Positions 12,121 through 42,666 of a DNA stretch of 64,000 nucleotides are shown here, one piece after another. Made by a program: the position numbers and the translations under genes. The stretch lies in the NCBI RefSeq assembly GCF_028752835.1, contig NZ_CP087952.1, positions 2,275,041-2,339,040 on the forward strand. Direction: 5' to 3'. The first letter of the stretch is position 1; each line of letters begins with the position of its first letter. The notes beneath the pieces are model-generated. The model was not told the DNA's origin. It did no database searches and saw only the letters and a list, made by a program, of their open reading frames with translations. This stretch comes from Desulfosarcina sp. BuS5. GTDB lineage: Bacteria; Desulfobacterota; Desulfobacteria; Desulfobacterales; BuS5.

Positions 12121-12951
12121 AATTCATTTCTCCATTTCCAATATACAATAATAATTGAACAACCTATGGTGAGCTATACTCAAAATTTAGCATGAATGCC
12201 GCTAAATTCAAAAAAAAGTGCCTGATTGTTGCAATTTTCGAATTTTTTCAAGTCTTGCTGAAATAATACGCCATCCGTTTACCGAAAAAAATATTTTGGC
12301 TTAAAAACGATGCTCAAGTGGAGTGTTTTACATTATAGAATACGATTCGATCTTAAAACCGCTCAATTTAGGTGTTTGTGTTTCTGCCATAAGCAGACTC
12401 GTTGCATGGCTGGACTCTCCTATGCAACGCCGGGATTTCGCTTATGCTGGATATCCTGTTACCGTTCTTTTACCCAAGGAAACATCCGGATCTCCCAAGT
12501 TCCCGAGCTACCCCTCTGAGAACATGCCCTGGTCTAAGACCCCGGTGGTGTCCTGAATACTTGCCTTAGCATATTCAGGACTGCTGCCTTCCGCTGCATC
12601 CAAAGCGTCGGCTTTCTCCGCCAAAGGCGAATTATCCAATGACCACAACTATACATTTTTCGGGGCTCAATACAGAGCCTGCAATCTTGCTCTATCCAGC
12701 TTCAGACTCCCGTTACCGGTTTTGCCTGTGGACTTCGCTACTGACCTGCTGGTTAGTCTTTAGTCAGATGGGACTATCTTAACATCAATGCCAGAGCAAG
12801 CCCTGCAGAGATGAAGGAAACAGACTGTTTCCCGAGCACCCACTTGGTAACAATATCGAGTTTCAAAGACCTTGTGTCTTATCCCAACGATTCGGATTTA
12901 TCTTGGCACGAGTATGCTCTTGTTCGACAAAAATTTTTACATTTTAGTATG
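12121..12951. other. Non-coding region, possible structured-RNA or group II intron remnant
   Basis: No convincing gene. From about 12330 to 12930 the minus strand is more GC-rich than its surroundings and contains segments such as CTCGGGAACTTGGGAGATCC and GGAGAGTCCAGCCATGCAAC, which recall the RNA part of bacterial group II introns upstream of the maturase gene. No reverse transcriptase is present. Small plus-strand frames at 12310-12556 look like translations of this structured sequence. The assignment is tentative. Confidence 0.25.
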
Positions 12952-13616: not shown

Positions 13617-14978
13617 TTAACCGATAGATAGTTTTTCTTCCGGCCTTGAGTATACAAGTTTTGTTCTAAATGATTGCAACGATCCTAAAAGGACAAGAGG
13701 ACCGAGGCGGCCTACAAACATCAAAAAAATGACAATAATTTTGCCAATTGGTGACAGGTTGGCTGTCAGTCCAGCGCTCAACCCAACTGTACCGAATGCC
13801 GAGACTGCTTCAAATAAAATTTCAAGAAAGTACCCTCTATCCTGTGCATGGGGTATATCTCCGCCTTCGGTGAAATCCAGGGCGATGACACATCCGAAAA
13901 TGATTACCAACGAGAAAAACAAAAGTGTTAATGATTTGTTTATTGATTCTTTATCGACAGCATAGTTTCCAATAACAACCTGTTCTCTTCCTTTGATCTG
14001 GTTCCAAATAAATCCTGAAAGGGCACGAAATGTGGTAACCTTGATCCCCCCAGCACAGGAACCTGGTGCTCCACCAACAAACATTAAAAAAATCATGAAA
14101 ACGAGGGAGGCATTTGTCATGCTGGATATATCCAGACTATTAAAGCCAGCTGTTCTGCATGTTACAGACTGAAAGAGAGACGTTAGTGCCGCTTCATGAA
14201 ATGGTAAATATTTTTTATAGCTTATAAATTCCGCGAAATAGAGATACAGCCAGCCGATCCCAACGAGAAAAAAAGAAGTCTTAATAACTATTTCAAAATG
14301 CCAACTACTTTTTATCCCACGGCCCTTTCTTTTCAAAAGTGACCATAGAATGGATTTTCCCTCAACGATTACGGCAAAGCCGACTCCCCCTAAAATAATA
14401 AGGGCCATAAACGTCAGGTTGACAGGCCAATCACCTTTGAAGCGAGTCAGGCTGTCTGAGTATAACGAAAAGCCCGCATTGCAGAAAGCGGAAATTGAAT
14501 GAAATAGGGCGGAAAATGGTGAAAAATTGTACGGTTCCAAGACAATAAGTATAAGCGCCCCAATAACCTCAATGCTTAAAGTTACAGCTATTAGTTGAAC
14601 AAGAAATTTCCCTAAATGAAATTTTGAGTCATAAAGGAGATTTTGTCCGACTGTAATACGATCCGTGAGGGATACCTTTTTTTTCACCAAGTAAAAGGCA
14701 AAGCTGGAAAACGTCATTATGCCAAGTCCGCCAAGCTGGATGAGAAACAGAAGGATTGTCTGGCCAGTTTGAGTAAATATGTTGCCCGTGTCGACAACGG
14801 TCAACCCCGTTACGCAGATAGCTGATGTCGCCGTAAAAAACGCGTCAATCCATGAAATTTCAGTTGATTGATTGCTAAACGATCCATGCAGAAGAATAGT
14901 TCCGGCGATTATTGCCGCTATAAAAAAAATAATGGGCAATGATATTGGGGCGAAGAGTTTATTAATATTTTTATTCAT
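13617..14978 (-). CDS. ktrB: Ktr/Trk potassium uptake channel subunit
   Basis: Integral membrane K+ translocating subunit. I place the start at the ATG at 14978 (MNKNINKLFAPISLPIIFF), because the extra 53 codons upstream are basic, non-conserved and read through a GC-rich spacer. About 453 residues and eight-plus membrane spans fit KtrB. Four pore-loop glycine motifs are visible: AICVTGLTVVDT, SAFCNAGFSLYS, VTCRTAGFNSLD and AFGTVGLSAGLT. It couples with ktrA through a TAATG junction. Sodium dependence cannot be judged from sequence alone. Confidence 0.93.
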   Translation of the reverse strand: MNKNINKLFAPISLPIIFFIAAIIAGTILLHGSFSNQSTEISWIDAFFTATSAICVTGLTVVDTGNIFTQTGQTILLFLIQLGGLGIMTFSSFAFYLVKKKVSLTDRITVGQNLLYDSKFHLGKFLVQLIAVTLSIEVIGALILIVLEPYNFSPFSALFHSISAFCNAGFSLYSDSLTRFKGDWPVNLTFMALIILGGVGFAVIVEGKSILWSLLKRKGRGIKSSWHFEIVIKTSFFLVGIGWLYLYFAEFISYKKYLPFHEAALTSLFQSVTCRTAGFNSLDISSMTNASLVFMIFLMFVGGAPGSCAGGIKVTTFRALSGFIWNQIKGREQVVIGNYAVDKESINKSLTLLFFSLVIIFGCVIALDFTEGGDIPHAQDRGYFLEILFEAVSAFGTVGLSAGLTANLSPIGKIIVIFLMFVGRLGPLVLLGSLQSFRTKLVYSRPEEKLSIG

Positions 14979-15872: not shown

Positions 15873-15943
15873 GGTAGTCCCTACAAAACAATGCAGGTGA
15901 TTAAAAAGTGTCTCTGAAAACATGAATAAAAAAGATTTTTACT
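15873..15943 (+). repeat. IS1-type left end (fragment)
   Basis: Starts GGTAGTCCCTACAAAACAAT and is the same sequence as the first 71 bases of the complete element at 30835-32056. It is interrupted by the IS4-type end at 15944. An inverted copy lies on the other side of that cluster at 18531-18628. Confidence 0.85.
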
Positions 15944-17261
15944 CAGTAGTGTCCGGTTAGGTTTTTGCATAACCTGTTAAAAATGGTGAAAAAAAATGAC
16001 CAAACCTGAATTTTTTACTTGACAAGCAAAGAAAAATTTTTGTGACAATTTGTAATATTATCAATTATTGCAAGGAGTTACAAGATGCCGTACAGTTTCA
16101 AACCGTCTCTGAAAAAATTTTATTCACCATCATTTTTTAAATTATCTCATCCGTTTATAAAAACTGCTTCTGAGGCTCCACCTCTGACTTCCAAAGGAGA
16201 TAGGCCATTAAAAATGACTTTCGAAGATCAACTCAATGCACTAATTTTTTTTCATCTTGAAGAACATGTATCAGCTCGCCATCTCATCCAAATGCTCAAA
16301 GAGGATGATTTCGCTCGTGAAAACATTGCTCCTGAAAATGGAATCAGCAGAAGCAGTTTTTCTGAAGCCATTAATAATAGAGGGCTCGAGCAATTAAAAT
16401 ATGTATTTGAAAAACTTAGTATTGAAGCTTCTAATGTACTGCCTGATCAGCATGCTGACCTCGGCAATCTTGTTGCATTTGATGGTTCATTCATTGATGC
16501 CGTACTCTCAATGACCTGGGCTGACTATCGAAAAGGGGCAAACAAAGCTAAGGTACATCTTGGCTTTAATTTAAATCAGGGCATTCCAGCTAAAATTTTT
16601 CTTACCGCCGGCAAAGGAGCTGAAAGACCGTTTGTCAATCAATTGCTATCTCCCGGGCAAACTGGTGTAGGTGATCGAGGTTACCAAAAACATGCCCTTT
16701 TTGATTTGCTGCAGGCTGAAGGCAAAAGCTTTGTAATTCGGATAAAGGCCGGTACAACCAAAACGCTTATCAAAGAACATGAGGTTAACCCTGACAGTAT
16801 TGTTTTTTATGATGCCGATGTTCTGTTAGGTACTGTGGAAAACAATAATCAAACTGAAAAATCTGTCCGCCTTGTAGGTTATCGTGTAAATGGTGTTGAT
16901 TACTGGGTAGCAACGGATTGTAGGGACTTGACCGCAGAGCAAATCGCTCAGATTTATAAACTCAGATGGAACATCGAAATTTTTTTTGCATGGTGGAAAC
17001 GCCATCTTCGAGTGTACCACCTCATTGCAAGGAGTGAATACGGGCTAATGGTCCAAATCCTTAGAGGACTCATTACTTACCTGCTTCTTGCAATTTATTG
17101 CCATAAAAATCATGGCGAACCTGTTAGTATCAAAAGGGTTAGGCAGTTAAGGATACAAATTCAAAATGAGCTTCGTGATTCCGGTAGCTCTACAGAGTCA
17201 TTTTTTTTCAAAGAACAAAAACATTGCCAGCTACACGCAAAAACCTAACCGGACATTACTG
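15944..17261 (+). mobile_element. IS4-family insertion sequence A
   Basis: Ends CAGTAGTGTCCGGTTAGGTT at 15944 and AACCTAACCGGACATTACTG at 17242-17261 are inverted repeats with one mismatch over 20 bases, enclosing one transposase gene. A second related element abuts directly at 17262 without its own left end. Confidence 0.85.
16085..17248 (+). CDS. IS4-family transposase (element A)
   Basis: A 387-residue DDE transposase, intact. An N-terminal DUF4372-like block (LKMTFEDQLNALIFFHLEE) is followed by a catalytic core: VAFDGSFIDAVLS (first Asp), GVGDRGYQKH (second Asp) and the IS4 signature YKLRWNIEIFFAWWK, that is Y(2)R(3)E(6)K. AAGGAG lies 6-10 bases before the ATG. The C-terminus runs into the terminal repeat (HAKT). 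By eye about two-thirds of residues match the adjacent transposase B. Confidence 0.92.
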   Translation: MPYSFKPSLKKFYSPSFFKLSHPFIKTASEAPPLTSKGDRPLKMTFEDQLNALIFFHLEEHVSARHLIQMLKEDDFARENIAPENGISRSSFSEAINNRGLEQLKYVFEKLSIEASNVLPDQHADLGNLVAFDGSFIDAVLSMTWADYRKGANKAKVHLGFNLNQGIPAKIFLTAGKGAERPFVNQLLSPGQTGVGDRGYQKHALFDLLQAEGKSFVIRIKAGTTKTLIKEHEVNPDSIVFYDADVLLGTVENNNQTEKSVRLVGYRVNGVDYWVATDCRDLTAEQIAQIYKLRWNIEIFFAWWKRHLRVYHLIARSEYGLMVQILRGLITYLLLAIYCHKNHGEPVSIKRVRQLRIQIQNELRDSGSSTESFFFKEQKHCQLHAKT

Positions 17262-29330: not shown

Positions 29331-30530
29331 ATGATTAAAAGGGCTCTTGAAAATAAACTGAAAAAAGCGGCAACACAGTATCCTGTTGTCACTATAACCG
29401 GGCCGCGACAGTCAGGAAAGACAACCCTGGTTCGTGCAGTTTTTAAGGATTACGATTATGTATCTCTGGAAGATCCGGAATTTCGTTCTTTTGCCCTTGA
29501 AGATCCGCGCGGTTTCCTGCAGCAATTTAGAAAAAATGTCATTTTTGACGAAGTTCAGCGGACACCTGAACTTTTTTCCTATATCCAGACAATAGTGGAT
29601 GAAAAAGACAGAACAGGGCAATTCATTCTCACTGGTTCTCAAAACTTTCTTTTATTAGATAGTATCAGTCAGACCCTGGCCGGCCGTTGTGCCATTTTGC
29701 ATTTATTACCATTCTCTCGGGATGAACTTGCCGGGATTCCATCTTTGCCGGTGAATCAGATAGGCCTAACCCTTCCGATTGACCGGAAAATTCCGGATGT
29801 AGACCTGCATAGTCAATTGTTCCATGGGTTCTATCCACGTATTCATGATAAAAAACTTGATCCTCAGGATTGGCTGAAAAATTATTATCAGACATATCTT
29901 GAACGTGACGTTCGTGAAATAATTAATGTTGGTGACCTGGAAACATTTCGCAGGTTTACTGCTCTTTGCGCCGGCCGCACCGGACAGCTATTGAATTTTT
30001 CTAATCTCGCATCGGATTGTGGTATTACCCATACAACAGCAAGGCGCTGGTTATCTGTTTTGGAAGCAAGTTTTCTCGTCGTTCTCCTCAGACCACATTA
30101 TCAGAATTTCCGGAAAAGGCTGGTTAAGGCTCCTAAACTCTATTTTTTAGATACAGGCCTGCTTTGTTACCTGTTGCGCATCAGGGAACCTGATGAGTTA
30201 GCATTCCACTCTGCCCGAGGCGCTATTTTTGAGACCTTTGTAGTTTCAGAACTTTATAAAAGGGCTTTTAACGCGGGACAGGATCCTGATTGTTTTTTCT
30301 GGCGGGACTCAGCCGGGCATGAAGTTGATCTAATTGTTGATCTGGGCAGCACATTGGTGTCCATAGAAATAAAATCAGGAGCCACAATAAGTAAAGATTT
30401 TTTTAAGGGTCTTAATTATTGGCAAAATCTCACCGAAACTAAAGTCAAAAGTAGGGCGGCATTAATATATGGGGGCAATAATTCTATGATACGCAATAAA
30501 ATTAACGTATATGCCTGGTGGAACTTTTGA
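29331..30530 (+). CDS. ATPase with DUF4143 domain (AAA_14 family)
   Basis: A 399-residue P-loop ATPase. Walker A is GPRQSGKTTLV (about residues 24-34), Walker B is NVIFDEVQRTPE, and LTGSQNFLLL is the sensor region. The C-terminal DUF4143 part has SNLASDCGITHTTARRWL (a winged-helix-like segment) and a PD-(D/E)XK-like core DSAGHEVDLIVD with SIEIKSG. Such proteins are abundant in mobile or accessory regions and their role is unknown; toxin-antitoxin or defence functions have been suggested for relatives. No operon partner. Confidence 0.88.
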   Translation: MIKRALENKLKKAATQYPVVTITGPRQSGKTTLVRAVFKDYDYVSLEDPEFRSFALEDPRGFLQQFRKNVIFDEVQRTPELFSYIQTIVDEKDRTGQFILTGSQNFLLLDSISQTLAGRCAILHLLPFSRDELAGIPSLPVNQIGLTLPIDRKIPDVDLHSQLFHGFYPRIHDKKLDPQDWLKNYYQTYLERDVREIINVGDLETFRRFTALCAGRTGQLLNFSNLASDCGITHTTARRWLSVLEASFLVVLLRPHYQNFRKRLVKAPKLYFLDTGLLCYLLRIREPDELAFHSARGAIFETFVVSELYKRAFNAGQDPDCFFWRDSAGHEVDLIVDLGSTLVSIEIKSGATISKDFFKGLNYWQNLTETKVKSRAALIYGGNNSMIRNKINVYAWWNF

Positions 30531-30834: not shown

Positions 30835-32056
30835 GGTAGTCCCTACAAAACAATGCAGGTGATTAAAAAGTGTCTCTGAAAACATGAATAAAAAAGATTT
30901 TTACTAAAAATTAAGATTGCTATAGACTAAAAGCAATATATTTTGTAGAGCACGGTTAAAACTCTATTCAAAGGATCGCAACCATGCAAAATACAGCAAA
31001 TACAGCCCTAACACTTTTTTGTCCCGGGAAAAGCTGCAAATGTTATCAATCAACCGAGAACAAAATCACCAAGGATGGAGTTTACATAACAAAATCCGAT
31101 TTTGAGCCAAGACAAATGTTTTACTGCAATGGTGGCAAACATAGATTCTCAGAAACAGGATATTCCGATCTTTTTGGAAAGCATGGCAGTTTTAAAGAAT
31201 ATGAGCAAACGGCAAAGCTAAACTCTTACGGCCTTGGCACTGATGCAATTGCCGATGTACTTCAAAAAGATCGAAGGACAATTGAACAACGGCAAAAAGC
31301 TATTGGGCAAAAAGGCCAGCAATTTCACCTATTTCTTTGTTTTACTATCGGACTTACCATTGTATTTTTCCAGATGGATGAACTATGGTCTTACCTTAAA
31401 AATAAAAGTCAACAATTATGGGTTTTTATCGCTCTTGAATCAACAACAAAATTCTGGATCGGTTTCGAGTTGGGTTCAAGAACAACTTACACTGCAAACC
31501 GTTTAGTAAAGGGCGTTAAAAAGTTGGGCAAATGGGGAAAAGATAATATATTAAAGGTCGCTGCAGATAAATTAGCGGCTTACAAAAATACGCTCGAAAA
31601 CATTATGTCTGAAATTCCTTATGCTTACCTGCAAATTGTTAAGCGCCGAATAAAGCGTCGGCTTGTAACAGTTAAAAAATATTTTGTAAAAGGTACTGTA
31701 AAAGATTTCCCCGGAAAAAGCCAAAACACCTCATTTATTGAGAGACTGAACCTTACCCTAAGGCAACATATCTCCTATCTTCAGAGAAAAACCCTGGGGT
31801 ATTGCAAGAACAAGTTGAATTTTAGTAATGTAATGTGGATTAACTTATTCAACTATAATTACATACAATTTCATAAGAGTTTACGAATACGAATTAACAA
31901 TGAAAACGAGAAATTTATAAAAAAGTATAACCATAATACACCGGCAATGCAGATGGGACTTACGAATTCTCCACTAAACTGGAGATATCTCATTACAGTC
32001 CCAATACCTTGTAAGTAGCTGATTTTTCGAACCTGCATTGTTTTGTAGGGACTACC
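30835..32056 (+). mobile_element. Complete IS1-family element
   Basis: The ends GGTAGTCCCTACAAAACAAT and ATTGTTTTGTAGGGACTACC are perfect inverted repeats, with a few more matching bases inside (GCAGGT/ACCTGC). They enclose one transposase gene. No flush target duplication is evident; the left side abuts a truncated ModE-like gene. Left-end fragments of the same element occur at 15873, 18531 (inverted) and 32983. Confidence 0.9.
30984..32018 (+). CDS. IS1-family transposase
   Basis: A 344-residue transposase. An N-terminal zinc-finger-like section (CPGKSCKCYQSTENK, YCNGGKHRFSETG) and a helix-turn-helix (LGTDAIADVLQKDRRTIEQR) precede the DDE core with FFQMDELWSYLKNKSQQLW, matching IS1 InsB. 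A central Asp fits VAADKLAAYKNTL and the Glu fits SFIERLNLTLRQ. As a single long frame it does not need the classical IS1 frameshift. Apparently intact. Confidence 0.9.
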   Translation: MQNTANTALTLFCPGKSCKCYQSTENKITKDGVYITKSDFEPRQMFYCNGGKHRFSETGYSDLFGKHGSFKEYEQTAKLNSYGLGTDAIADVLQKDRRTIEQRQKAIGQKGQQFHLFLCFTIGLTIVFFQMDELWSYLKNKSQQLWVFIALESTTKFWIGFELGSRTTYTANRLVKGVKKLGKWGKDNILKVAADKLAAYKNTLENIMSEIPYAYLQIVKRRIKRRLVTVKKYFVKGTVKDFPGKSQNTSFIERLNLTLRQHISYLQRKTLGYCKNKLNFSNVMWINLFNYNYIQFHKSLRIRINNENEKFIKKYNHNTPAMQMGLTNSPLNWRYLITVPIPCK

Positions 32057-32172: not shown

Positions 32173-32457
32173 ATGGGTGCTCTTTCTCAGGTAGAAAAAA
32201 TATCACAAAAATATTCTGTATCTGCTGAAGAATTTATTCGTTCCGGCGCAATTACGAACCTTAAAGAAAAAAAACGATTGCTTCAGATCGAACGTTTCGA
32301 AATTTTGTCCAGATACCGGGCTTCAAGCGTAGAAGAATTAAATCAGAAGGTTGCGGAAGGCGATGCGCCGGAACATCCCGGGTGGGAAGATTTGATTGAA
32401 GTTAAGAATATAGAAATGGAAATTAACGAGATAGAAAATGATATCAGAATATTATAA
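32173..32457 (+). CDS. Small helical protein, putative antitoxin partner of the TumE-like protein
   Basis: A 94-residue predicted all-helical acidic protein with no family I can name. It starts at an ATG with AAGGAGG 5 bases upstream. Its end overlaps the start of the next gene by 20 bases, implying translational coupling. The first part (SQVEKISQKYSVSAEEFIRS) resembles a short DNA-binding or coiled segment. Position upstream of a DUF6516 gene suggests the antitoxin role; this is inference. Confidence 0.55.
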   Translation: MGALSQVEKISQKYSVSAEEFIRSGAITNLKEKKRLLQIERFEILSRYRASSVEELNQKVAEGDAPEHPGWEDLIEVKNIEMEINEIENDIRIL

Positions 32458-32842
32458 GCGGATAAAAGGGAATGTTGAGCGCAAGTTTTCTGATATTTTG
32501 GAATCTGCTGAATTAATTAAGGGAACAGCCGGTAGAATTCTTAAGCTGCGGCTTCATTTGATTGATAATACTTTTGTAGATATCTGGTATTCACCTGATG
32601 GCAGCTATTCATATCACTGGGAGCAACGAAATATCAGAGATGCTATCTATCGTCATGACAACGCTCCTCATAAGAAATGGCGAAATGTCTCAACATTTCC
32701 CAAGCATTGTCATGATGGCAGCCAGCTAAATGTTACTGAAAGTTTTCTTCCGGATAATTATGAAAATGCGGTTGAAGAGTTTCTTCGATTGGTCAGGGAG
32801 CAAATGGTTGCCGAACAGATAGCAATAAAAAAAGACAGATAA
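32438..32842 (+). CDS. TumE-like toxin (DUF6516 family)
   Basis: A 134-residue protein whose central part, LRLHLIDNTFVDIWYS, YSYHWEQR, YRHDNAPHKKW and TFPKHCHDG, follows the DUF6516/TumE pattern (YSYHWQ...RWDNAPHH...FPHHKH). Members are toxins of two-gene TA modules paired with a small regulator; the conserved Asp/His residues may be catalytic. It overlaps the upstream small gene. The module sits beside IS1-type ends and a broken gene, typical of a mobile accessory cluster. Confidence 0.65.
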   Translation: MISEYYKRIKGNVERKFSDILESAELIKGTAGRILKLRLHLIDNTFVDIWYSPDGSYSYHWEQRNIRDAIYRHDNAPHKKWRNVSTFPKHCHDGSQLNVTESFLPDNYENAVEEFLRLVREQMVAEQIAIKKDR

Positions 32843-38317: not shown

Positions 38318-38401
38318 TGCTCGGACATCCACATAGCAATAAAGTCAGCGCCCTTACGGGCGCAACACAAAAAAGTTACACAAATTAATATGGCTATCCC
38401 C

Positions 38402-38662
38402 AGGCCGCCCTGAAAGGGCTAAACATATCAGCCCGGAGCAACGCCCCGGAAAAAGATTATATATTCCCCAAAAGCCCTGAAAGGGCAATACATAGTGAAG
38501 TGCTAAAGAAAGAAGACGAAATGAGGAGCGTGTAAAGACAACCTGAAGATAAGATGCCGAAAAATAAATATATGTCACGCCCTTTCAGGGCTGATTGATT
38601 ATGGAATATTAGAATCCCAGAGCGTTGCCCTGGGCTGGTATGTATAGCCCTTTCAGGGCTGA
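38402..38662. repeat. Inverted array of GCCCTGAAAGGGC palindromic modules
   Basis: A 45-base module (CGCCCTGAAAGGGCTAAACA, then CAGCCCGGAGCAACGCC) at 38402-38446 recurs inverted at 38619-38662. Two further GCCCTGAAAGGGC-type palindromes lie between, near 38472 and 38579. The whole 38318-38902 spacer contains no convincing gene. Short frames in 38625-38913 look spurious. Confidence 0.65.
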
Positions 38663-38902
38663 TAATCGAATAACTTTTTCATATTGCACCCGAACAATTA
38701 AAGGAAAAGTGAATAGTTCACCTATGGGTATGAACTCACGGGAACCCAAGTCATGTCATCAGCCATCAGCATACTATTTTGTTTGGCTTTTACTGTCTCA
38801 ACTATTGCTGCCAGCACCACACAATGCCAATACGACGAGACCTCCACCGCCTCACCCGTGTTGAACGATCGGATGGAACAAATATGACCGCCTGGAGGCA
38901 TA

Positions 38903-40741
38903 ATGAATAACATTAACGAACAACTTGTCGGAAAAAAGAAAAACAGCAGATGGGCAATTCGTCCACTGGTTCCTGGAGAAGTTTACACGAACCGCGAGGA
39001 ACATCTGGAATATCTTTACAATGCAGCTCTTGACGCCATAGGCCGCAGGACCATGTCCACCGTCCTTTTAGGCCAGCGCCGCATGGGCAAAACAGAGATA
39101 TTCAAGCGTGTAGTAAACCGCCTTTTTTTCGAGCAGGATCATCTGGATCCAAAAGCGGTTATTCCTGTCTATTACAGCTTTAAAGATGAGCCGCTTGACA
39201 GGTGGGAATTTGCTATAGGATATACGGAAAATTTTCTTCGCTGGTATGCTGCGTTTCGATTAAGAGAGCCCCAAATTCTTTCCACGAAAAATCTTGACCT
39301 TGACGATCTTTCTGAATTGATCAGGCTGCGTCTTGATGTGCCTGAGGGCTTGTCAGGCGCTCTAAAGTTCATAGAGTCTCTTCAGAAGAAGAAGGTCACA
39401 ATACCTGAAGATGAGGCCGTTACACTACCACGGCGAGTTTCCGACTGGGACGAAAGTACGATTATAATGTTCCTGGACGAATTCCAGAATACCCGTCTTC
39501 CCCAATACAACTTCAGCATAGTCGGTTTTATGCAGGAAGCGGTAGAATCTCCTACATGTCCCCATTTTGTAACCGGCTCTGCCATGAGCATCCTGGCAAG
39601 AGAGATACTTGGTCGGGGGTCGCTTTTCGGAAGGTTTCGCAGCCATCCGATTGAACCGATGACCAACTATTGGGGGGCGCAGTTGGCGTTCAAGGCTTCC
39701 CTCTATCATAAAGCTCACATAGAAAAAAAAATGCTGCCCGTAGTAGCAGACCGCTGCGGGGGAAATCCATTTTATATTACAGCAGTAATCCAGCAGGCAG
39801 CAGAACAGGGCAAACCGATTATCAGCGAAGAGTCACTTAACGAAATCCTCGCTGTAGACCTTTCTTCCGGTTTTATATGGGCTGAACTGAATGACCAGGT
39901 AACAAAGTGGATAGAAAGAATTAATGAATATGGAATTACTAAGTGGGTTCTCTATCTTTCTGCTTTGGAAGAAGGAGATCGGCTTGATCTTGATAGAATT
40001 CAGAAAGAACTTGCAGAGCGTGAAGGAAAACACGTACCCATGGAGACTATCAGGGATGTATTGATAAAGCTTTCCAGGGGTGATCTTCTCCAGTACATGG
40101 AACTTGGCGGATGGTTCAGAAAGATAGATGATCCGATCCTGCTTGAGTTTTTAAAGGTGTGGGGCAGAATTGAGGTGGAGGGTCATGATCGTGCCAGGGT
40201 TCAGAAAGAGCTTGTTCGGCATTATCAAACCCTTGACAAACGAATTAATGACCACCTTGGATATCTCGCTGAAGTATATATGGCGCAGGTCTTATGGAAC
40301 GGCCAGAGAAAAACTCTGGCCGGCCGGTTTTTTCACAGCAATGAAGATGTGACATTGCCCTGGCGTTTCATATATATAAGACATCGCACCAGACTTGGAG
40401 CGGCAAAAGAGATGGAGATTGATGTCGAAGCGGCAGCGGCAAAGGAGCACTGGATATGTGAAAGCAAGTGGTGGCATGGTCGGAAGGTTGGTCATGCTGA
40501 TGTGGAATCACTCCTGCGAAAGGCCGAAGCCCTGCGGGAGGCGGAAGGCGAAGGTCTTGAGACGATGAGAGTCTGGTTTTTTGCTCATGATGGTTTTACA
40601 AAAAAAGCAGAAGGCCTAATGAAGAAAAAGGATATGCTCTGGTCTGTAAGAGATGATCTTGACGGTCTGCTTGAGTCTGTGGGGTTGCGTCGTTTGCCGA
40701 ACATAGTAAACAAAAAGGGAATTGAGGAGAGCGTAAGTTGA
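38903..40741 (+). CDS. P-loop ATPase with C-terminal PD-(D/E)XK-like nuclease motif, copy 1
   Basis: A 612-residue protein of unassigned function. Walker A is GQRRMGKT (57-64), Walker B is IIMFLDE (187-193), and HFVTGSAMSIL (221-231) is a sensor-like segment. A winged-helix-like middle (about 340-415) leads to a C-terminal domain with Glu457, Asp507 and Glu520-x-Lys522 (EIDVE...CESKWW), spaced as in restriction-endonuclease-like folds. The plan resembles archaeal-type ATPase/DUF234 proteins. GGAGG precedes the ATG by 5 bases. It overlaps copy 2 by 4 bases. A defence or DNA-processing role is inferred, not shown. Confidence 0.8.
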   Translation: MNNINEQLVGKKKNSRWAIRPLVPGEVYTNREEHLEYLYNAALDAIGRRTMSTVLLGQRRMGKTEIFKRVVNRLFFEQDHLDPKAVIPVYYSFKDEPLDRWEFAIGYTENFLRWYAAFRLREPQILSTKNLDLDDLSELIRLRLDVPEGLSGALKFIESLQKKKVTIPEDEAVTLPRRVSDWDESTIIMFLDEFQNTRLPQYNFSIVGFMQEAVESPTCPHFVTGSAMSILAREILGRGSLFGRFRSHPIEPMTNYWGAQLAFKASLYHKAHIEKKMLPVVADRCGGNPFYITAVIQQAAEQGKPIISEESLNEILAVDLSSGFIWAELNDQVTKWIERINEYGITKWVLYLSALEEGDRLDLDRIQKELAEREGKHVPMETIRDVLIKLSRGDLLQYMELGGWFRKIDDPILLEFLKVWGRIEVEGHDRARVQKELVRHYQTLDKRINDHLGYLAEVYMAQVLWNGQRKTLAGRFFHSNEDVTLPWRFIYIRHRTRLGAAKEMEIDVEAAAAKEHWICESKWWHGRKVGHADVESLLRKAEALREAEGEGLETMRVWFFAHDGFTKKAEGLMKKKDMLWSVRDDLDGLLESVGLRRLPNIVNKKGIEESVS

Positions 40742-42543
40742 ATTCTTTTAACGAACAACTTGTCACAAAAAAGAAAAACAGCAGATGGGCAATTCGTCCG
40801 TTGGTTCCTGGAGAAGTTTACACGAACCGCGAGGAACATCTGGAATATCTTTACAATGCAGCTCTTGACGCCATAGGCCGCAGGACCATGTCCACCGTGC
40901 TTTTAGGCCAGCGCCGCATGGGCAAGACAGAAATTTTCAAGCGTGTAGTAAATCGTCTCTTTTTCGAGCAGGATCATCTGGATCCAAATGCGGTTATTCC
41001 TGTCTATTACAGCTTTAAAGATGAGCCGCTTGACAGGTGGGAATTTGCTATAGGATATACGGAAAATTTTCTTCGCTGGTATGCTGCGTTTCGATTAAGA
41101 GAGCCTTCTATTCTGTCTCCTGACTCAGTAAGCAGGGATGGCCTTTCGGAAATGATTAAAGCACGTCTTGAAGTTCCTGAAGGGCTTGCAGGCGCTCTCA
41201 ATTTCATGCGGTTCCTCCAGGAAAAGGATGTAACTACGCCTGAAGACAAAGCTGTGACTCTTCCCCGGAGGGTTTCTGACTGGGACGAGAGTACCATTGT
41301 CATGTTCCTGGACGAATTCCAGAACACCCGTCTTCCCCAATACAATTTCAGCATTGTCGGTTTTATGCAGGAAGCGGTAGAATCTCCTACATGTCCCCAT
41401 TTTGTCACGGGCTCTGCCATGAGCATCCTGGCAAGAGAGATACTTGGTCGGGGGTCGCTTTTCGGAAGGTTTCGCAGCCATCCGATTGAACCGATGACCA
41501 ACTATTGGGGGGCGCGGTTGGCGTTCAAGGCTTCCCTCTATCATAAAGCTCACATAGAAAAAAAAATGCTGCCCGTAGTAGCAGACCGCTGCGGGGGAAA
41601 TCCATTTTATATTACAGCGGTAATCCAGCAGGCAGCAGAACAGGGCAAACCGATTATCAGCGAAGAGTCACTTAATGAAATCCTCGCAGTAGACCTTTCT
41701 TCCGGTTTTATATGGGCTGAATTGAACGACCAGGTAACAAAGTGGATAGAGCGGATCAATGAATATGGAATAACAAAGTGGGTCTTATATCTTTCCGCTT
41801 TAGAAGAAGGAGACCGGCTTGATCTTGATAGAATCCGGAAAAAGCTTGTTGAGCGTGAAGGAAAACACGTACCCATGGAGACTATCAGGGATGTATTGAT
41901 AAAACTCTCCAGAGGTGATCTTCTCCAATACATGGAACTTGGCGGATGGTTCAGAAAAATAGACGATCCGATCCTGCTTGAGTTTTTAAAGGTGTGGGGC
42001 AGAATTGAGGTTGAGGGTCATGATCGTGCCAAAGTCCAAAAAGAACTTATTCGGCATTATCAAACCCTTGACAGACGGATTAATGATCACCTTGGATATC
42101 TCGCTGAAGTATATATGGCGCAGGTTTTATGGAACGGCCAGAGAAAAACTCTGGCCGGCAGGTTTTTCCACAGCAATGAAGATGTGACATTACCATGGCG
42201 TTTCATATATATAAGACATCGAACCAGACTTGGAGCGGCAAAAGAGATGGAGATTGATGTCGAAGCGGCAGCGGCAAAGGAACACTGGATATGTGAAAGC
42301 AAATGGTGGCATGGTCGGAAGGTTGGTCATGCTGAGGTGGAATCACTCCTGCAAAAGGCCGAAGCCTTACGGGAGGCGGAAGGCGAAGGTCTTGAGACGA
42401 TGAGGGTCTGGTTTTTTGCTCATGATGGTTTTACAGAAAAAGCAGAAGACCTAATGAAGAAAAAAAATGTGCTCTGGTCAGTAAGGGAAGATCTGGACGG
42501 TCTGCTTGAGTCTGTTGGGTTGCGTCGTTTGCCGAACATATAG
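40738..42543 (+). CDS. P-loop ATPase with C-terminal PD-(D/E)XK-like nuclease motif, copy 2
   Basis: A 601-residue tandem paralogue of the preceding gene, starting at a TTG that overlaps its stop region (TTGA). About nine in ten residues match, and all key motifs (GQRRMGKT, VMFLDEFQNT, EIDVE, CESKWW) are kept. Differences concentrate in residues about 124-172, between near-identical flanks. The protein ends LRRLPNI because the TAG stop comes from the R1 repeat at 42539; copy 1 has 12 more residues there. The pair may form hetero-oligomers with distinct specificities; that is inference. Confidence 0.8.
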   Translation: MNSFNEQLVTKKKNSRWAIRPLVPGEVYTNREEHLEYLYNAALDAIGRRTMSTVLLGQRRMGKTEIFKRVVNRLFFEQDHLDPNAVIPVYYSFKDEPLDRWEFAIGYTENFLRWYAAFRLREPSILSPDSVSRDGLSEMIKARLEVPEGLAGALNFMRFLQEKDVTTPEDKAVTLPRRVSDWDESTIVMFLDEFQNTRLPQYNFSIVGFMQEAVESPTCPHFVTGSAMSILAREILGRGSLFGRFRSHPIEPMTNYWGARLAFKASLYHKAHIEKKMLPVVADRCGGNPFYITAVIQQAAEQGKPIISEESLNEILAVDLSSGFIWAELNDQVTKWIERINEYGITKWVLYLSALEEGDRLDLDRIRKKLVEREGKHVPMETIRDVLIKLSRGDLLQYMELGGWFRKIDDPILLEFLKVWGRIEVEGHDRAKVQKELIRHYQTLDRRINDHLGYLAEVYMAQVLWNGQRKTLAGRFFHSNEDVTLPWRFIYIRHRTRLGAAKEMEIDVEAAAAKEHWICESKWWHGRKVGHAEVESLLQKAEALREAEGEGLETMRVWFFAHDGFTEKAEDLMKKKNVLWSVREDLDGLLESVGLRRLPNI

Positions 42544-42666
42544 ATTGTCAGATAATTACCCGATTTTAAAATTTGGCACAAGGCCAGAGGGGGTATGGGT
42601 TCAAAATCTTGAACCCATACTCCAACGACCGATAACGCAGTAAAATTATTTATGTGACAATCTATA
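42539..42666. repeat. R1-family repeat with intact ends, overlapping a stop codon
   Basis: The 128-bp element runs from TATAGATTGTCAGATAATTA to AATTATTTATGTGACAATCTATA-type ends, terminal inverted repeats of about 17 bases. It contains the R1 core CCAACGACCGATAACGCAG and a GGGTATGGGTTC/GAACCCATAC hairpin. Its first TAG is the stop of the second ATPase gene. Confidence 0.85.

Follow-up and report, generated by a model that had tools for sequence, protein, structure and literature searches.

Tandem ATPase-nuclease genes of Desulfosarcina sp. BuS5 and a family with exchangeable, putatively specificity-setting cassettes

Introduction

The ATPase_2/STAND proteins of the MNS clade (SSO1545, 2fna; PABY2304, 2qen; PF01637) share with the proteins described here a common fold, a GxRRxGKT Walker A, a DE-x-Q Walker B and the GGNPF motif. 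ORC/Cdc6 and the DnaA-clade initiators fall in the same ATPase superclass, and the HsdS target-recognition domains of type I restriction systems resemble them in being discrete specificity cassettes recombined between conserved segments. A STAND-like ATPase joined to a nuclease-like effector, in large diversified families, is also the plan of the NLR/Avs receptors, and in known STAND receptors specificity is usually assigned to long C-terminal repeats. Other diversifying conflict systems have been described (PMC7159879, PMC10907252), and the STAND NTPases that are DGR targets in multicellular bacteria (PMC10907252) are, like the present proteins, diversified STAND-type conflict proteins.

Here, we analyse two tandem genes (A and B) in a 64,000-nucleotide stretch of the Desulfosarcina sp. 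BuS5 genome (hereafter the window, whose positions are used throughout). To the MNS-clade plan their family adds a PD-(D/E)XK nuclease and an exchangeable helical cassette, and it stays below the Pfam cut-off. In contrast to the NLR/Avs receptors, the effector is C-terminal and what varies is a small insertion within the ATPase domain; the order is ATPase followed by nuclease, with no long C-terminal repeat sensor and no repeat matched in Pfam. The helical insertion takes (by topology) the position that the initiator-specific motif has in ORC/Cdc6, but it is hypervariable and exchangeable, and the protein ends in a nuclease. Unlike HsdS, the family represents another protein class, with cassette, ATPase and nuclease on one polypeptide and without a methyltransferase partner, and it differs from the DGR targets by whole-cassette recombination, with every codon position changed and no adenine-biased point mutation. 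A search of the open-access literature (subscription papers being outside its scope) found no description of this ATPase-nuclease family.

Results

A tandem pair with one divergent block

The features referred to below, all on the forward strand, are the following (V1, V2 and V3 being the segments that vary or exchange).

38903..40741, +, gene A: 612 aa, ATG start, AAA+/STAND-type ATPase with a C-terminal PD-(D/E)XK nuclease domain (predicted)
39071..39094, +, Walker A of gene A: residues 57-64, GQRRMGKT, 7 of the 8 residues tested and each invariant (80/80)
39269..39436, +, V1 of gene A: residues 123-178, of the type common to homologues L011 and L108 (from identity and trees)
39464..39481, +, Walker B of gene A: residues 188-193, D192 and E193 kept in 80/80
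39656..39835, +, V2 of gene A: residues 252-311, almost unchanged between A and B but exchanged among relatives
40196..40702, +, V3 of gene A: residues 432-600, predicted PD-(D/E)XK nuclease domain, exchanged among relatives
40415..40468, +, nuclease active-site stretch of gene A: residues 505-522, E-x-D ... E-S-K (from conservation and AF2 strands)
40738..42543, +, gene B: 601 aa, TTG start, paralogue in tandem with A
41104..41271, +, V1 of gene B: residues 123-178, of the type common to L005, L006, L008 and L003 (from identity and trees)
42031..42537, +, V3 of gene B: predicted PD-(D/E)XK nuclease domain

A and B are the only full copies in this genome (n = 2). As a sequence-only reading of the window had noticed, the two open reading frames (38903-40741 and 40738-42543) overlap by four bases (TTGA, shared by the stop of A and the start of B) and encode nearly the same protein: 601 residues align without gaps, with 41 differences (93.2% identity). 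Judged from this overlap, translation of the two genes is probably coupled, and its shortness suggests that both proteins are made together, as two V1 specificities on one scaffold. A MITE-like unit of ~128 bp (42539-42666; 20-nt ends, 90% complementary) runs with its left end over the stop codon of B, which there lacks the last 11 residues of A.

The same reading described the differences as sparse except around residues 124-172, and the counts agree: residues 11-600 contain 37 differences, of which 21 lie inside 124-175, and in 20,000 draws from a uniform null the densest 52-residue window held at most 13. In the DNA, 65 substitutions lie within codons 121-180, and third positions are changed in 39 of these 60 codons, versus ~3 substitutions per 20 codons and ~10% of third positions elsewhere; the DNA flanking the block is 90-100% identical. 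Since the silent sites are saturated between near-identical flanks, the block must have a history older than, and separate from, the rest of the gene. It is therefore not explained by amino-acid tolerance, as a patch that merely tolerated change would not have saturated its silent sites.

Predicted folds and active sites

The full-length AlphaFold2 (AF2) model, built with 57 homologues, reached a pLDDT of 88.8. Its N-terminal two thirds are modelled as an archaeal-type AAA+/STAND ATPase, with PABY2304 (2qen, E 3e-11) and SSO1545 (2fna, E 3e-10) as best structure matches, followed by ORC/Cdc6, the NLR NRC2, Apaf-1 and MalT. Pfam returned ATPase_2 and AAA_14 under the curated cut-offs (PF01637 at 24.4 bits, 33.2 being needed) and NCBIfam no meaningful family match, so that the ATPase_2/STAND kinship rests on the fold and on the profile match to 2fna; 2fna and 1y88 were retrieved independently, by sequence, with the family HMM. 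The motifs read from the letters (Walker A GQRRMGKT, Walker B FLDEFQ) are sound, as G57, R59-T64, D192 and E193 are each present in 80/80 homologues. R244 is likewise present in 80/80, and the STAND-like fold also holds a sensor region and a conserved GxP-type motif (G286-G287-N288-P289, in GGNPF).

For the C-terminal region, the stretch EIDVE...CESKW had been called PD-(D/E)XK-like and a fold check proposed. Modelled alone, the last 179 residues (AF2 pLDDT 94.2) adopt a predicted PD-(D/E)XK fold with an alpha-beta-beta-beta-alpha-beta core, for which Foldseek returned AF1548, EndoMS, MspJI, AspBHI and Can2/Cdn1 (and, weakly, LmuA), and the active site lies on strands 505-512 and 515-522. Among homologues E457 is kept in 78/78, D507 in 74/75 and K522 in 75/75, and position 520 is E in 44 and Q in 31 (E/Q, 75/75). 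Both A and B retain all the catalytic residues checked (including D507, E520 and K522), and proteins of this type would be predicted to cleave DNA.

V1 is an old and discrete module

Mapping of the variable residues, which the sequence-only reading had proposed, placed V1 on two helices (133-143 and 148-161 in the AF2 model) that separate alpha2 from the Walker B strand of the ATPase. Judged by topology and general background, this would be the position of the ORC/Cdc6 initiator-specific motif.

Within residues 124-175, A is 98% identical (aa) to L011, from another genome and species, versus 60% to B, and its other segments are 69-96% identical to L011; B in turn is 96, 96, 94 and 85% identical to L005, L006, L008 and L003, respectively. 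Outside V1, A and B are each other's closest relatives. The trees (in which several paralogues with a common locus label were collapsed to one, the window rows being unaffected) show the same: V1 DNA rejects an A+B clade (AU p = 7e-48), and the backbone DNA rejects both A grouped with L108, which is the same gene as L011 (AU p 0.012), and B grouped with its V1 type (p 1e-6).

V1 is the most variable region across the whole family. Within a V1 type, the median omega is 0.094 in the block versus 0.078 in the backbone, so V1 is constrained about as strongly as the scaffold and is not a relaxed loop; a relaxed or fast-evolving loop was ruled out by this equality together with the saturated silent sites. 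Between types, pN is 0.26-0.46 and pS 0.56-0.83, that is, pN lies far above that of the scaffold, in a comparison blurred by silent-site saturation. On sequence evidence, the V1 types are thus best described as old, discrete and constrained, at a strength of statement limited by that same saturation. DGR hypermutation was likewise rejected, as the block mismatches spread over all base pairs (53% involving A) and have no direction.

The proposal that gene conversion keeps the rest of the pair constant is supported by flanks homogenised within the genome and by the separate history of the block; the accompanying view of a surface now diverging is not. The block had been thought to diverge fast in this pair, and it is instead a saturated allele type found in other species (omega ~0.09 versus 0.08). 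It does behave as a specificity-like module, as supposed.

Cassettes and nuclease modules are reshuffled between copies

When the 80 homologues were clustered at 70% identity, the backbone fell into 3 groups, V1 into 55 types, V2 into 26 and the nuclease into 29. Of the 56 pairs whose backbones are at least 88% identical, 35 have V1 identities below 70% and 11 have identities of 90% or more, and all four combinations of like or unlike V1 and V3 occurred. V2 (252-311) and the nuclease module (432-600) also reassort among relatives, and the correlation between V1 and V2 over pairs is weak (Spearman 0.20).

The genome G118 holds six copies in 14 kb (one frameshifted; spacers mostly ~50 bases) and three further copies within 7 kb elsewhere. 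In its array, copy 3 combines the V1 of copy 2 with the V2 and V3 of copy 1, with boundaries sharp at 60-base resolution, which on its sequence makes it a clear recombinant; adjacent co-encoded copies with identical V1 types also exist. At a glnE-flanked locus found in three species, one differs from its sister species by a replaced V1 (43%) and V2 (67-68%), in proteins that are otherwise 85-97% identical (except for residues 81-121, 66%).

A tandem pair (L170) from a family only ~25% identical shows the same arrangement: DNA identity is mostly 90-100% in the upstream flank, falls to 50-87% in the corresponding block and is 100% over more than 1,100 bases downstream. Other pairs of the ~25%-identical group dip in identity at the matching position. 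One position has thus been diversified in two long-separated branches, and this recurrence is the strongest reason to think that V1 does something specific.

Pairing had been regarded as central, and a block variable across unpaired copies as evidence against that idea. Just this variation was found, and it runs through the whole family, whether the copies are single or in arrays. The A/B pair is the minimal example of this wider pattern and not a special two-component module.

Distribution and genomic context

In the order of the window genome, the family was detected in 23 of the 389 sampled genomes (E <= 1e-60); a phylum-wide sample yielded close copies beyond the window genome only in G133, a genome that the order sample had already shown. 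Copy numbers in carriers often range from several to ~20 (distant relatives counted). Among the carriers are Desulfonema magnum, Candidatus Thiomargarita nelsonii, Parabeggiatoa, Desulfobacterales MAGs and one Anaerolineales. The family is present in distant phyla, in unrelated genomic contexts. Fragmented metagenome assemblies, in which contigs often end in family genes, supplied many of the homologues; this weakness is absent from G118 (complete, one contig) and from the window genome (two contigs).

No family match was found among the plasmids, phages and viral contigs searched; cargo of phages or plasmids was ruled out on this ground, and, with no such carrier, there is no direct link to an invader. 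A fixed operon partner was also discarded, as the neighbour genes of family loci (antisense shadows ignored) include no constant one.

The pair had been placed in a spacer-rich accessory stretch, a description that suits the upstream region (IS1-type transposase, TumE-like toxin, DUF4143 ATPase) but not the immediate neighbours, which are housekeeping genes (RecC-like, thioesterase, MTHFR). Upstream, an AAA_14/DUF4143 ATPase gene (29331-30530; match to the PADLOC candidate PDC-S01, E 1.7e-112) lies near the IS1-type transposase (30984-32018). The second gene of a pair at 32173-32842 encodes a TumE-like toxin (PF20126), and the pair is probably a toxin-antitoxin system. A group II intron match (D1-D4-6) occupies 12530-12777 on the minus strand. 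Between the thioesterase gene and A lies an intergenic element (38357-38692) that has imperfect terminal inverted repeats of 22 nt (CGGGCGCAAC...) and contains GCCCTGAAAGGGC palindromes. In an empty-site comparison with G001 (same genus), the window gene order stops at MTHFR and no clean boundary was seen.

Defence-family matches were few both among the 137 neighbour and the 146 control proteins, the former not being clearly richer; with no clear enrichment, a defence role is one that we infer. PADLOC models gave only weak local matches to A and B (best, PDC-S01 over residues 45-75). An MmeI-like type IIG restriction-methyltransferase gene of G118 (L126:7715-10426) is located between tandem-array copies, and HsdR and PDC-S09 nucleotidyltransferase genes stand beside another array. 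The spacers of the former array (L126:5850-5910, 12240-12298, 14090-14142 and 15930-15987) carry related palindromes (GCCAAACTGAAAGTTTGGC, GCCGAATTGAAAGATTGGC) directly 5' of start codons. As a cis target tracking the V1 type these palindromes were ruled out in G118, where they track array position; as they do not covary with V1 type, they give no hint of V1 reading nearby DNA.

Discussion

We reason, with a probability of about one half, that V1 is an exchangeable specificity cassette on an ATP-switched nuclease, diversified by recombination and seated at the position of the ORC/Cdc6 initiator-specific motif. Each protein would be such a nuclease, composed of an ORC/STAND-like ATPase (probably ATP-oligomerising) and a C-terminal PD-(D/E)XK domain. 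Because of its place at the initiator-specific motif, V1 (~123-178) most likely touches the trigger, either invading DNA or an invader/non-self protein, and would thereby set specificity; recognition would then lead to ATP-dependent assembly and to DNA cutting. V1, V2 and V3 are reshuffled between copies by homologous recombination, so that a genome would hold a repertoire of trigger/nuclease combinations. A and B would constitute a minimal two-allele repertoire, probably co-translated, with two V1 types on a near-identical scaffold and nuclease.

Cassette-like diversity could also arise without any selection on specificity, if the paralogues split long ago, gene conversion went on evening out the segments still alike, and V1, V2 and V3 were simply too diverged for conversion and persisted as recombination-limited islands that keep an old orthology. 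The grouping of flanks by genome and of V1 by type is what concerted evolution with escaped islands predicts, and the status of V1 as the family's most variable region fits as well. Such islands should nonetheless not move whole between neighbours, as V1 did, nor should V1 and V3 so often be unlinked; the within-type constraint on V1 resembles that of the scaffold, the between-type pN (0.26-0.46) far exceeds the scaffold's (blurred, again, by silent-site saturation), and a family 25% identical is diversified at this very position. Whole-cassette moves and recurrence are not well explained by islands, an account that we judge rather unlikely.

We find it improbable that V1, V2 and the nuclease are subunit interfaces which diverged to stop the co-assembly of co-resident copies. 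The many copies per genome (up to ~20) and the two patches of the ATPase domain that vary along with the nuclease speak for it, but A and B differ in V1 only (V2 and V3 being near-identical), V1 and V2 are weakly correlated (Spearman 0.20) and the adjacent co-encoded copies of G118 can have identical V1 types. Slightly more improbable still is a selfish or domesticated homing-type gene, an ATPase-nuclease that spreads itself and whose V1 sets the insertion or cleavage target. A high copy number, a patchy distribution, unrelated contexts and distant phyla would be expected of it, and so would scarcity outside certain genomes (23/389 in the order). Against it, no terminal repeats bounding the A/B pair, common boundaries or clean empty site were identified, many copies are tandem or at stable loci (e.g., the glnE locus in three species), and plasmids and phages searched lack the family.

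Returning to V1 as a specificity cassette, the combination of a nuclease with a STAND-like ATPase, the arrays, the allele diversity and the restriction and PDC-S09 nucleotidyltransferase genes in or beside arrays suggest defence, and a role in sensing invaders or in telling self from non-self is plausible. In filamentous or giant bacteria the role may just as well be self/non-self recognition. Thiomargarita is rich in AAA ATPases of unknown function (PMC4853749), and filamentous gliding bacteria exchange genes by transfer (PMC6390638). We tentatively suggest, and consider possible while leaning slightly to doubt, that these genes form an undescribed prokaryotic repertoire of tandem STAND/ORC-like ATPase-nucleases, in which ancient cassette types reshuffled with nucleases sense invaders or non-self, mainly in large-genome and filamentous sulfur-cycle bacteria.

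In proteins of the A/B type, diversification appears to lie in a ~55-residue insertion, placed like the ORC/Cdc6 initiator motif and exchanged as a unit on a near-invariant ATPase-nuclease scaffold. The natural pairs that differ nearly only in V1 (A/B and L170) are ready swap experiments on how a STAND protein reads its trigger. The families, tandem arrays and cassette swapping seen in sulfur-cycle relatives are as expected of a repertoire that diversifies recognition, possibly in immunity.
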